Source: Chloroflexota bacterium (GTDB lineage: Bacteria > Chloroflexota > Anaerolineae > UBA4142 > SHND01). From it: a DNA stretch of 64,000 nt. Made by a program: the position numbers and the translations under genes. This document shows, in pieces, positions 8,328-58,505 of the stretch. The notes under the pieces were generated by a model. It had not been told where the DNA came from. It worked only from the letters and a program-made list of their open reading frames with translations, and made no database searches. The stretch's first letter is position 1, and each line of letters starts with the position of its first letter. Where the stretch lies: assembly GCA_029778615.1 (NCBI GenBank), contig JAKOPZ010000072.1, forward strand, positions 1 to 64,000, given 5' to 3'.

Positions 8328-8810
8328 ATGTTGAGTGTTGGAGCGCCTGCGCCCGAATTTGTCTTGAACGATGTGGATGGCAATTCACACCAATTCGACG
8401 CGCACGCGGCGCTCTTGACGCTGGCGGTTTTTTTCAAAACATCCTGCCCGACGTGTCATTACGCGTGGAGATTTTATGAGCGCTTGCACCATGCGTATAA
8501 AAATTCAGGATTGCGCGTTTTGGGCATTTCACAGCACGACGCGGAGCGAACCATCAATTATCGCGCACAGCACCACGCGACGTTTCCGCATTTGCTTGAT
8601 GAAGGATTCGCCGTCTCACGCGCATACGACCCCGCGTTTGTGCCGACGGGTTTTTTGATTGACGCACAAGGCAGCATCGTCGAAATTGTCGAATCGTGGA
8701 ACAGCCAAAGGTTCAATACCTTTTCGGAACACATCGCTACCCGTCTCGCGGTAACGTCACAACAAATCGTTACACCGCAGGACAATGCGGTGGAAAACAA
8801 AATTGGTTGA
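8328..8810 (+). CDS. Redoxin/TlpA-like thioredoxin-fold protein
   Basis: This 160-residue cytoplasmic protein (no signal peptide) has an AhpC/TSA-redoxin fold. APAPEFVLNDVDG near the N-terminus precedes a thioredoxin-type Cys40-Pro-Thr-Cys43 motif in FFKTSCPTCHYAW, a GISQHD turn, and the cis-Pro segment FVPTGFLID near residue 105. The CxxC points to thiol-disulfide exchange or peroxidase activity. It starts 2 bases after nuoI, so it is probably co-transcribed with the complex I genes and might protect or mature Fe-S proteins; that role is inference. Confidence 0.85.
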   Translation: MLSVGAPAPEFVLNDVDGNSHQFDAHAALLTLAVFFKTSCPTCHYAWRFYERLHHAYKNSGLRVLGISQHDAERTINYRAQHHATFPHLLDEGFAVSRAYDPAFVPTGFLIDAQGSIVEIVESWNSQRFNTFSEHIATRLAVTSQQIVTPQDNAVENKIG

Positions 8811-24185: not shown

Positions 24186-24641
24186 ATGGCAGACGCGCGC
24201 GTTGAAACGATTATCAATTATTACGAACTTGGCGATGGACTCGTCTCGAGCGGGCAACCATCGCCTGACGAATTTGCCGCGATTCGCGACGCGGGCTATC
24301 AAGTCATTATCAATCTCGTGCCCACCGACGCGCAAATGGCGCTGGCAGGCGAAAAAGAGATTGTCGAACATCTAGGCATGGAATACATTCACATCCCCGT
24401 CATTTGGGATTCGCCGCAAGCGAGCGACATTGAAAAATTTTTCCACGCCATGCAAACTCATCGCGACAAAAAAGTTTTCGTCCACTGCGAAGTAAATTAC
24501 CGCGCGTCGTCGTTTCTCTATTTGTACCGCCGCAAATTTCTCGGCGTGGACGAAAAACAAGCGCGTCAAGACTTGCAATGGATTTGGGCGCCAAATCCAA
24601 CGTGGAAACAATTCATTCAAGACATAGAATCCGCCTTTTAG
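24186..24641 (+). CDS. Protein tyrosine phosphatase-like protein
   Basis: The ATG at 24186 has a GAGGAAA ribosome site. The 151-residue product begins with a YYELGDGLVSSGQPSPDEF segment typical of DUF442/DSP-like phosphatases. It carries the P-loop HCEVNYRAS near 105, which has four rather than five residues between Cys and Arg (CX4R). A QWIWAPNPTWKQFIQ tail follows. The last 13 codons lie in the first unit of a 92-bp tandem triplication. Substrate unknown. Confidence 0.8.
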   Translation: MADARVETIINYYELGDGLVSSGQPSPDEFAAIRDAGYQVIINLVPTDAQMALAGEKEIVEHLGMEYIHIPVIWDSPQASDIEKFFHAMQTHRDKKVFVHCEVNYRASSFLYLYRRKFLGVDEKQARQDLQWIWAPNPTWKQFIQDIESAF

Positions 24642-24880
24642 TGTCCGCAGGGACACTTGGCATTCTCGTTGCCGCGATTTCAATCGCCCATACATGGAAA
24701 CAATTCATTCAAGACATAGAATCCGCCTTTTAGTGTCCGCAGGGACACTTGGCATTCTCGTTGCCGCGATTTCAATCGCCCATACATGGAAACAATTCAT
24801 TCAGAACATGAAATCCGCCTTTTAGTGTCCGCAGGGACACTTGGCATTCTCGTTGCCGCGATTTCAATCGCCCAACCGAT
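24603..24880 (+). repeat. Three 92-bp tandem repeats, first overlapping a gene end
   Basis: Units start at 24603, 24695 and 24787, with near identity. Each contains the last codons and stop of the phosphatase gene (TGGAAACAATTCATTCA), a GTGTCC-GCAG-GGACAC hairpin and TTGCCGCGATTTCAATCGCC. The first two units are identical over almost all their length; the third differs by a few bases. Confidence 0.95.
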
Positions 24881-25803: not shown

Positions 25804-26187
25804 ATGCCCGACAAAATTATCCTGCGCGGCGCGCAATTTCACGGCAAGCACGGCGTTTCGCCCGAAGAACGTATCGTCGGCGGGCGCATCATCGTGGACG
25901 TGGAAATCGAATATGACCTCACCCGCGCGGGCATCAGCGACACCATCGAGGAAACAATCAGTTATTCGTCTGTATTCAAAGTCATTCGCGCGCTCGTAGA
26001 AGAAACGGAATCGCTTTTGCTGGAAGGACTGGCGCAAAAAATCGCGGCGGCGCTGCTCGAAAATTTTCCAATGGACGCGGTGACCGTCAACGTTCGCAAA
26101 CAACCCCCGCCCATTCGCGGCGTCGTCGAATCGGCAGGCGTCGAAATTCGGCGCACGCGCGTCAAGAGATTGGAGACTAGAGATTGA
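25804..26187 (+). CDS. folB: Dihydroneopterin aldolase
   Basis: FolB cleaves 7,8-dihydroneopterin in folate synthesis. The 127 residues show ILRGAQFHGKHGVSPEERIVGG, the typical N-terminal folate-pathway signature, VDVEIEYDL, the DTIEETISYSSVF segment and a terminal VRKQPPPIRGVVESAGVEI. A near-consensus promoter ends about 10 bases before the start, so no ribosome site is expected. The last codons (RLETRD-stop) are made by the left arm of a heptad array. Confidence 0.93.
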   Translation: MPDKIILRGAQFHGKHGVSPEERIVGGRIIVDVEIEYDLTRAGISDTIEETISYSSVFKVIRALVEETESLLLEGLAQKIAAALLENFPMDAVTVNVRKQPPPIRGVVESAGVEIRRTRVKRLETRD

Positions 26188-26234
26188 CATTTGACGTGAG
26201 TTTTCTGCGTCTCCAGTCTCTAGTCTCCAATCTC
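26166..26234 (+). repeat. Heptad-period palindromic array, locus 5
   Basis: The 18-base arms GAGATTGGAGACTAGAGA (26166-26183) and its exact complement (26217-26234) consist of 7-mers (GATTGGA, GACTAGA, GATTGAC; GTCTCCA, GTCTCTA, GTCTCCA). The left arm encodes the end of folB and its stop. The array fills the folB-peroxiredoxin gap. Confidence 0.9.
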
Positions 26235-26241
26235 GCCCCAT

Positions 26242-26742
26242 ATGTCTCAACAAAAATTATCCGTCGGCGACCCCGCACCGGATTTCAAATTACGCGGCGT
26301 CATCACCAAACCCGAAGTCAAACGCGTAGACGTACAACTGAGCGATTATCGCGGCACGCAGAATGTCGTCATCGCGTTTCATCCGTTCGCCTTTACCGCG
26401 ACCTGAGACCGCCAAATTCCCGCAATGGAAGCGTTTGCCGAAGACTTTGTGGGATTACACAGCCAAGTTTTGGCTGTCTCGTGTGACCCGGTGAGTTCCA
26501 AAGAAGCGTGGGGCAAATGGCTCGGCGGCATTTCGTATCCACTCGTCTCTGATTTCTGGCCCCATGGCGAAATGTCAACCAAGTACGGTGTGTTCAATCT
26601 CGAATTCGGTCGCCCCGACCGTTCTTTTTTTATTGTGGACAAACAAGGCATCCTTCGTTGGGTCAAAATCTTCAAGCCCGGCGAATTACCGGACGTTGTA
26701 CAAGTGTTGGACGCGCTGCGCGAAATGACAAATGACGAGTAG
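26242..26742 (+). CDS. Peroxiredoxin with in-frame TGA at the peroxidatic cysteine (probable selenoprotein)
   Basis: From the ATG at 26242 one frame runs 166 codons to 26742, broken only by TGA at 26404-26406 (codon 55). Around it reads HPFAFTATUDRQIPAMEAF, so the TGA falls exactly at the C of the PxxxTxxC peroxidatic motif (Pro48, Thr52, position 55). Upstream is VGDPAPDFKLRG and downstream a complete AhpE/Prx5-like fold: LAVSCDP, ending with FFIVDKQGILRW. Cys81 in VSCDP is a possible partner. Read as selenocysteine, it is an intact 1-Cys-type peroxidase. Otherwise it is a nonsense-killed gene. selA, selB, selC and selD are not in the window. Confidence 0.82.
26407..26440 (+). promoter_or_regulatory. 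Candidate bacterial SECIS-like hairpin
   Basis: Right after the TGA, CAAATTCC (26413-26420) can pair with GGAA (26427-26430) and TTTG (26434-26437), giving an 8-bp stem with a 3-base bulge and a CGCAAT loop. Placement fits a bacterial SECIS, but the loop lacks the typical GGU-type apex, so support is weak. Confidence 0.3.
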
Positions 26743-26791: not shown

Positions 26792-27550
26792 ATGCGTTCC
26801 GTCTCCCTTTTCAACTTGGATGTCGTTCCGTATGCCGACGCACTCGCGCGGCAGCACCAAATCGTTGACGCGCGCAAAGGCGGCGCGGGCGAGGATACCC
26901 TGCTCTTGCTTGAACACAATCCCGTGTTCACACTGGGACGCAACGCGCAGCCCCAACACATTCTCGCGTCACGCGAATTTTTGGAAACCATCGGCATCGA
27001 AATCCATCGCGTCGAACGCGGCGGCGATGTGACGTATCACGGACCCGGACAGCTCGTCGGGTATCCGATTCTCGATTTGCGAAATTTCCGCATGGACGTT
27101 GGGTGGTACGTGCGCGCGCTCGAAGACGTTTTGATTCAAACGCTCAACAGTTACGGACTCGACGCGCACCGCGCGGGCTTGAACGAAAACGGCAAACGCG
27201 ATTCCAAACTTGTCGGCGTGTGGGTCGAAAATCCAACCGACGACGCGCTCGAAAAAAAATTGCAGCCCGAAGCCAAAATCGCGCAAATCGGCGCGCGCAT
27301 CGAACAATGGATTACGTATCACGGCTTGGCGTTGAACGTTGACCCGAACATGGCGCATTTTCAATTCATCGTCCCGTGCGGCATTCCCGACAAACCTGTC
27401 ACATCGCTCGCACGCGCGTTGAAAAAAAATGTTTCGATGGACGATGTGCGCGCCCGCGTCGCCCGCGCGTTTGAAAATGTGTTTGATGTCGAATTGCGCG
27501 TTTCGCATCTCGTACAAGCACAAGGTGTTGTTCCTACGTTTCATGTTTGA
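26792..27550 (+). CDS. lipB: Octanoyltransferase
   Basis: LipB transfers octanoate from ACP to lipoyl domains, supplying LipA. The 252 residues contain RGGDVTYHGPGQLVGYPI, the family signature with the conserved histidine, KLVGVWV, the TYHGLALNV segment, and the active-site Cys in VPCGI with the conserved lysine nearby. The ATG at 26792 is chosen for family length. It follows the TGA peroxiredoxin by about 50 bases. Confidence 0.95.
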   Translation: MRSVSLFNLDVVPYADALARQHQIVDARKGGAGEDTLLLLEHNPVFTLGRNAQPQHILASREFLETIGIEIHRVERGGDVTYHGPGQLVGYPILDLRNFRMDVGWYVRALEDVLIQTLNSYGLDAHRAGLNENGKRDSKLVGVWVENPTDDALEKKLQPEAKIAQIGARIEQWITYHGLALNVDPNMAHFQFIVPCGIPDKPVTSLARALKKNVSMDDVRARVARAFENVFDVELRVSHLVQAQGVVPTFHV

Positions 27551-31954: not shown

Positions 31955-32424
31955 GTGTGGAAATTGGCGACCAGGCACCGGATTTCAAGTTAAAGAGCGA
32001 CAGCGGCGAGGATGTCAAGCTTTCTGCGTTCAGAGGAAAAAAAGTTGTCTTGTATTTTTATCCCGAAGATGATACGCCGGGCTGCACAAAACAAGCATGT
32101 GACTTTCGCGACAATTTTGCCGCGCTGCAAGGCGCTCATGCCGTCGTGTTGGGCGTCAGCCCCGACAGCATTGAATCGCATGTGAAATTCAAAAAGAAAT
32201 ATGATTTGAATTTTCCACTGCTCTCCGACCCCGACCACAAGGTCGCGGAAAAATATGGCGCGTGGGGCGAAAAAAATAATTACGGCAAAAAATATATTGG
32301 CTTGATTCGCAGTCACTTTGTGATTGACGAGAAGGGGAAACTCATTGACGTGCGCCGCCGCGTTTCCTCCAAAGACAGTATGCGGCTCGCGCTCGAAGCA
32401 TTGACGAAATCTGCCGCGCGCTAA
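31951..32424 (+). CDS. bcp: Thioredoxin-dependent peroxiredoxin (Bcp/PrxQ)
   Basis: The ATG at 31951 overlaps the previous stop. The 157-residue protein has peroxidatic Cys45 in DDTPGCTKQACDFRD and the PrxQ-type resolving Cys50 five residues on. It reduces peroxides using thioredoxin. It is an ordinary-cysteine relative of the TGA peroxiredoxin 5 kb upstream and a useful comparison for motif position. Confidence 0.95.
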   Translation: MSVEIGDQAPDFKLKSDSGEDVKLSAFRGKKVVLYFYPEDDTPGCTKQACDFRDNFAALQGAHAVVLGVSPDSIESHVKFKKKYDLNFPLLSDPDHKVAEKYGAWGEKNNYGKKYIGLIRSHFVIDEKGKLIDVRRRVSSKDSMRLALEALTKSAAR

Positions 32425-57845: not shown

Positions 57846-58505
57846 ATGAAACAACAACTCGTCGGTATTTTTGTGGCAAGCTTGATGTTGGTGTGCGCGT
57901 CCGCGTGTGCGTTCGCGCCGGTGCAAGCATTGAACGCGATGCAAACCACCGAAGACGGCGCGCCGGGCATCCCCGCGCGCACAGTCTCAAATGAAAATGC
58001 CGATGCGGTGGCGCAAGAGGGACAAATGGTAACGTCAGCCACTCCCGCGCCGGTCAAGCCCGACAAGAGTGAGTTCAAACTGGCGCAGGAAATTTCGAGC
58101 GATACGTGGATTAATTCCGGGAAAATCAATTGGTCAGATTTACGCGGCAAGGTGGTGGTCGTGGATTTTTGGACGTTCGCCTGCTACAACTGCAAAAACA
58201 CACTACCCTACAAAAAGGATTGGTACTCGAAATATGCGGACAAAGGTTTGGTCATAATCGGCGTGCACACACCCGAACTCTCTTTTGAAAAGGTTGTGGA
58301 CAATGTTCGCAAGGCAGTGCAAGATTACGGCATCCGGTATCCGATTGCGATAGACGGTGATTACTCTAATTGGCGGCGCTATAACGTTTGGGCGTGGCCC
58401 ACGTGGTTCATCGTTGACAAGGAAGGTTACGTGCGGTACACGCATATCGGCGAAGGCGATTACGCGGGCAGTGAAAAGATGATTCAGCAATTGTTGGCGG
58501 AATGA
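57846..58505 (+). CDS. Exported thioredoxin-like (TlpA/redoxin) protein
   Basis: The ATG at 57846 has AGAGG upstream. The 219-residue protein has a signal sequence (MKQQLVGIFVASLMLVCASA with Cys residues near 17-21) that could be a lipoprotein signal. A redoxin domain follows with CxxC as Cys113-Tyr-Asn-Cys116 in DFWTFACYNCKNTLPY, GVHTPELSFE and WAWPTWFIVDKEG (cis-Pro). It probably exchanges disulfides or matures cytochromes outside the membrane. Divergent from the two-component genes. Confidence 0.9.
   Translation: MKQQLVGIFVASLMLVCASACAFAPVQALNAMQTTEDGAPGIPARTVSNENADAVAQEGQMVTSATPAPVKPDKSEFKLAQEISSDTWINSGKINWSDLRGKVVVVDFWTFACYNCKNTLPYKKDWYSKYADKGLVIIGVHTPELSFEKVVDNVRKAVQDYGIRYPIAIDGDYSNWRRYNVWAWPTWFIVDKEGYVRYTHIGEGDYAGSEKMIQQLLAE

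Follow-up and report, generated by a model that had tools for sequence, protein, structure and literature searches.

An AhpE-type peroxiredoxin gene of a Chloroflexota bacterium with probable selenocysteine at the peroxidatic site and a likely SECIS hairpin 60 nt downstream of the UGA

In the accepted model of the bacterial SECIS (bSECIS), the element possesses an apical loop of 3-9 nt with a G in the first two positions, an upper stem of 4-16 bp and an energy of -7.5 kcal/mol or lower, and its apical loop is placed 16-37 nt from the UGA (PMC13188914). The SECIS stem-loop of E. coli is found about 11 nt from the UGA (PMC8659212). According to reviews, some selenoprotein genes fall outside this model and maybe use distinct SECIS classes (PMC13188914, PMC9312934). 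Among the peroxiredoxins, PrxU of Peptoclostridium (Eubacterium) acidaminophilum is a known selenoprotein, as stated in the passage of PMC9312934 that cites Sohling 2001. Here we describe a related gene in a 64,000-nt stretch of DNA (the window; positions 1 to 64,000 of contig JAKOPZ010000072.1, assembly GCA_029778615.1) from a Chloroflexota bacterium of the class Anaerolineae. Like PrxU, its predicted product carries Sec as the peroxidatic residue of a TxxU motif in an AhpC-TSA fold, and both genes contain a coding-region hairpin with a G-U-containing loop; however, the two proteins share 33.7% identity, and the hairpin is located at 17 nt in PrxU but at 60 nt here. The closest solved relative is AhpE of M. 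tuberculosis (Rv2238c; E = 4.6e-31), which by fold shows 37-39% identity at TM values of 0.85-0.94. Its peroxidatic residue is Cys, whereas the window protein has a putative Sec and differs further by Cys81 and by six residues inserted close to the N-terminus. Compared to canonical bSECIS elements of the E. coli fdhF type, the window hairpin is likewise a coding-region stem-loop 3' of the UGA with a small apical loop in which G is followed by U, but its distance is 60 nt instead of 16-37 nt, a second helix often lies in between, and its stem lacks the bulged U.

The gene spans positions 26242-26742 of the forward strand and comprises 166 codons, with Sec assigned to codon 55, followed by a TAG stop (26740-26742). 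Retranslation (MSQQKL...FHPFAFTAT*DRQ...MTNDE) returned the same single frame that an earlier sequence-only reading had reported, with the TGA of codon 55 (26404-26406) as its lone internal stop. The start at ATG 26242 agrees with an in-frame stop at 26221 and with the N-terminal alignment to relatives. As that reading had also claimed, the TGA occupies the Cys position of a PxxxTxxC motif, P48, T52 and U55 of the protein matching it. With U read as C, Pfam AhpC-TSA scores 99.7 bits over the whole frame. In the AlphaFold model (pLDDT 93.6) U55 is located near the start of helix 53-64, i.e. at the place of the peroxidatic Cys, and the best PDB match by fold is M. tuberculosis AhpE. The fold, the sequence and the PxxxTxx(C/U) motif all mark the protein as AhpE-type, so that the AhpE/Prx5-like fold proposed earlier is narrowed to the AhpE type. 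Against the NCBIfam PrxU model (NF040737) the protein reaches 62.5 bits, far below the curated cut-off of 270, and is not a PrxU member.

Relatives of the gene occur in 258 of 298 genomes of the class, the closest ones all with exactly one TGA. Our aligned set consists of 52 AhpE-type genes with TGA (Sec genes), 23 with TGC or TGT (Cys genes) and 14 PrxU-like genes with TGA; in all of them the TGA or Cys codon falls into one single alignment column. The 52 Sec genes of this class sample each contain one internal TGA, always in this column, while the homologs without TGA, which are the more distant ones, show Cys and never Trp codons at the U55 position. The in-frame UGA is thus found where homologs have Cys, as is expected of a bacterial selenoprotein. 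A scan of a named contig collection, from which apparent duplicates of the class sample were left out, added 42 AhpE-type Sec genes from Chloroflexota, Bacillota (Schinkia, Neobacillus, Anaerobacillus, Sulfobacillus), Acidobacteriota, Planctomycetota, Zixibacteria and Deltaproteobacteria. A quick tree requires about three Sec/Cys changes within the AhpE group, a pattern that would fit an ancestral Sec lost on two occasions. In five genomes of the same order (G039, G137, G227, G265, G292), an AhpE-type Sec gene of the FAFTAT/I-U type is accompanied by a paralog of the LAWTPV/I-U type, and each of the two contains the distal hairpin described below; the genome of the window shows the FAFTAT type alone. 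PrxU-like Sec peroxiredoxins (CFYPGDFTFV-U-PTEL; loci L096-L109) are also widespread in the class.

The genome that contains the window (6.0 Mb, 372 contigs, 95% complete) encodes tRNA-Sec with anticodon UCA (68.4 bits, cut-off 47), SelA (578.7 bits) and SelD (363.9 bits), the latter with an in-frame TGA of its own (CAG-U-AAKLG). SelB scores below the family cut-off because contig ends interrupt the gene. Its N-terminal 52 residues are encoded by a frame that extends over the edge of contig C160 (C160:1-215), and its C-terminal 245 residues enter from the start of contig C144 (C144:1-739); compared with the full-length SelB proteins of relatives, the two parts show 84-94% and 46-62% identity, respectively. 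We assume that both contigs adjoin within one SelB gene, the middle of which is missing from the assembly. All four components expected of a selenoprotein-producing bacterium, whose search the sequence-only reading had suggested, are hence present, SelB as two end fragments only. Of the 76 genomes of the class examined for SelA, 65 score above the cut-off; since Sec-trait genes are this common, its co-occurrence with the peroxiredoxin does not discriminate. The SelD gene (C271:29307-30239, forward strand; locus L018) is likely a selenoprotein gene itself, with its TGA in AACAG-U-AAKLG and a hairpin, CAAGUUUUG, whose loop lies 33 nt past the UGA. A second AhpC-TSA protein of this genome with one in-frame TGA (G000:C285:7515-7880, reverse strand; locus L114) has the TGA at the redox residue (VLTFLRGFT-U-PHC) and a hairpin at 25 nt, and is likely a UxxC Prx-like selenoprotein.

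Taken together, the Sec machinery, the TGA-or-Cys column and, in the TGA-containing relatives, a matched region without other internal stops bear out the earlier proposal of a probable selenoprotein. It is well supported by these comparisons that the gene encodes an AhpE-type selenoprotein with Sec presumably decoded at the UGA, and peroxidase activity would be expected of the protein. As the sequence-only reading had stated, Sec at the peroxidatic site is known for some bacterial peroxiredoxins, namely those of the TxxU kind.

Within the range of 16-37 nt, we found no conserved element in the AhpE-type Sec genes when scanning for canonical SECIS: hairpins of -7.5 kcal/mol or lower occur in only 4/52 Sec genes and 3/23 Cys genes, at varied spacings. 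In the window gene this range contains merely a 4-bp hairpin of -1.2 kcal/mol, and the 71 nt around the TGA fold no better than shuffled sequences (z = -0.19). The stem noticed earlier right after the TGA is therefore as weak as had been stated, and the conserved element is found 60 nt downstream instead. Here, an 8-bp hairpin, ACAGCCAA-GUU-UUGGCUGU (26459-26477), has its loop at 26467-26469, separated from the UGA by 60 nt. Scored by the bSECIS rules, as the sequence-only reading had recommended, the TGA-adjacent stem fails, while the distal hairpin passes on loop (GUU), stem (8 bp) and energy (-9.7 kcal/mol) and fails on spacing, the distance being 59-60 nt in all 52 Sec genes of the class sample. 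Applied unchanged, the scan rules give a spacing of 17 nt for all 14 PrxU-like Sec genes as well as for P. acidaminophilum PrxU, and the 33 nt and 25 nt mentioned above for SelD and L114 of the own genome. From these spacings it follows that the distal place is a trait of the AhpE-type family and not of the organism.

The distal hairpin occupies a fixed place in the alignment, with 8 bp and a 3-nt GUN loop. Its core is AGCCA/UGGCU in the order of the window and ACCCA/UGGGU or GCCCA/UGGGC elsewhere; 98.5% of the alignment cells are paired, and four pairs change on both sides. At least seven of the eight pairs are formed in 51/52 Sec genes versus 1/23 Cys genes, and the hairpin appears in the minimum free energy (MFE) fold of 51 of the 52. 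At least six pairs are formed in all 94 Sec genes, among which the 52 class genes are an unaffected sample and the 42 named loci are not unbiased, since the collection scan used two peptide patterns, of which one covered the hairpin. The covariation score of a structure consisting of this hairpin and the second helix is 0.334, compared to 0.05-0.10 for slid versions. Because the region codes for protein, codons were shuffled only among sequences sharing the same amino acid (1000 shuffles). Pairing in the Sec genes exceeds all 1000 of these synonymous shuffles (z = 7.6), whereas the Cys homologs give z = -1.2. Such shuffles do not preserve relatedness, which the count on a tree does: in the tree of the 94 Sec genes both partners have changed with pairing kept on 24 branches, versus 0-1 in slid controls. 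The third base of codon 78 tracks the first base of codon 74, with T opposite A and C opposite G and one exception each. Residues 75-77 are QVL in 52/52 members of the Sec family and variable in the Cys homologs, as if the RNA constrained the protein. At the hairpin site, two Cys homologs (L084, L085) retain GCC CAG, GTC or ATC, CTC, and GGC or GGG, which might be the trace of a SECIS that was lost. Neither at gathering nor at permissive thresholds did Rfam yield a genuine match to the gene or its surroundings. When the own genome was searched with a model of the two helices, the peroxiredoxin gene alone was recovered (E = 4e-15); another hit, on contig C276, is at chance level (E = 0.77). The hairpin at 26459-26477 is most likely the SECIS of this gene, in a distal variant, as judged from these comparative data.

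Between the UGA and the distal hairpin, a second helix (helix I) can form from UCCCGCA (26418-26424), which follows the UGA after 11 nt, and UGUGGGA (26448-26454). Its start at 11 nt corresponds to the distance of the canonical upper stem (PMC8659212), which is also seen in the PrxU-like genes analysed here. Helix I is 76.8% paired, is contained in the MFE fold of 33/52 Sec genes and exceeds synonymous shuffles at z = 5.8, with covariation mostly at third codon positions and up to five pair types. On the tree it shows 11 double changes versus 0-6 for slid versions, and 147 branches carry changes that involve a non-pair. Looping-out of the extra spacer by helix I is plausible on these grounds for the order of the window and for part of the others, this idea being weak outside the own order.

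Different explanations of the in-frame UGA and of the hairpin have to be weighed. A lone stop in an otherwise intact frame is what a nonsense change in a Cys peroxiredoxin, or a sequencing error, would leave behind. This explanation is ruled out for practical purposes, at a residual probability close to nil, since 94 homologs across many genomes and phyla share the TGA, and the protein is moreover 73-82% identical to its congeners along the full length; the earlier argument that a random nonsense change is implausible at this codon thus gains weight from the 52 of 52 class homologs. Nor do the TGA-containing relatives show, where they match, the additional stops that had been named among the marks of a pseudogene. 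An in-frame UGA, taken alone, would equally be compatible with a variant code that assigns it to Trp or Cys, or with a deliberate product of 54 residues. The other AhpC-TSA genes of the genome are, however, free of internal TGA, bar the one with TGA at the redox residue, the genome possesses Sec machinery, and homologs have Cys but never Trp codons in the column, rendering recoding of this kind very improbable.

As to the hairpin, the gene could encode a selenoprotein whose SECIS is the arm directly following the UGA, i.e. helix I with its inner loop, while the distal hairpin enhances recoding or stabilises the fold. The start of helix I at the canonical 11 nt and its covariation at third codon positions speak for such a proximal arm. 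Nevertheless, its loop lacks conservation and its pairing is often disrupted, whereas the distal hairpin has a conserved G and is formed in all; given, in addition, the rarity and varied spacing of canonical-model hairpins in both Sec and Cys genes, we consider a proximal SECIS unlikely. Somewhat less likely still, the distal hairpin is kept for a reason other than Sec, such as a constraint on the protein or mRNA stability. It does fall within a well conserved beta strand (QVLAVS), but covariation is seen at synonymous sites (with A opposite GCT or GGT and G opposite GGC), the Cys homologs lack the hairpin, and its loop contains the G-U of bacterial SECIS elements.

We therefore favor, with a probability of roughly 0.86, an AhpE-type peroxiredoxin with Sec at the peroxidatic site, inserted via SelB on the hairpin 60 nt downstream. 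SelB, together with Sec-tRNA-Sec and GTP, would bind this coding-region hairpin and, from there, would deliver Sec at the UGA. Helix I, where folded, could cut the effective distance to the canonical one. In the protein, U55, with which helix alpha2 starts off, would react as selenolate with the peroxide; the selenenic acid so formed would then be reduced by a thiol, for which Cys81 is a candidate besides thiols from outside the protein. Cys81 (codon 26482-26484), the candidate resolving residue, is the only Cys of the protein besides U55 and is kept in 16/17 members of the own clade; among the remaining Sec clades of the class sample, 31/35 members carry a Cys at position 86 instead, within helix 84-93. 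A selenenylsulfide of U55 with Cys81, or with the Cys at position 86 in the other clades, is possible.

The gene is preceded by folB (dihydroneopterin aldolase; 25804-26187, forward strand, Pfam FolB), as in the genus and some members of the order, and followed by lipB (lipoyl transferase; 26792-27550, forward strand, Pfam LplA-B_cat; the start is uncertain, 26732 or 26792), which adjoins the peroxiredoxin gene in almost every relative from the order. This context marks a stable locus and says little on function. In the interval between folB and the peroxiredoxin gene there is an inverted repeat (26166-26234; 21-nt arms, 95% complementary, 27-nt gap) that overlaps the 3' end of folB. Further upstream, at 24600-24875, a 92-nt unit occurs three times in head-to-tail order after the end of a PTP-like gene, the copies being 93-99% identical and the first of them overlapping the last codons of that gene. 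Other AhpC-TSA/redoxin genes of the window (8337-8684, 31963-32346 and 58116-58439) are all without internal TGA.

In our literature search, descriptions of AhpE-type selenoproteins or of a bacterial SECIS at 60 nt were not found; subscription papers were outside its scope, so an earlier description is possible. While the selenoprotein itself is of an ordinary kind, TxxU peroxiredoxins being known, the distal SECIS variant is the unusual part. Probably, it represents a separate class of bacterial SECIS, by which SelB would be recruited about 60 nt past the UGA and which would be fixed to the AhpE-type family across Chloroflexota, Bacillota, Acidobacteriota and others, with the additional distance looped out by an intervening helix in at least some of its members. 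A distal SECIS would explain why model-based scans miss such genes, and automatic annotation likely truncates them at the UGA or starts them downstream. A looser spacing rule would thus matter for the finding of selenoproteins as well as for engineered Sec insertion. With its conserved 60-nt spacing, present beside canonical selenoprotein genes in the same class, the family offers a testable case of SelB reaching a distant ribosomal A site.
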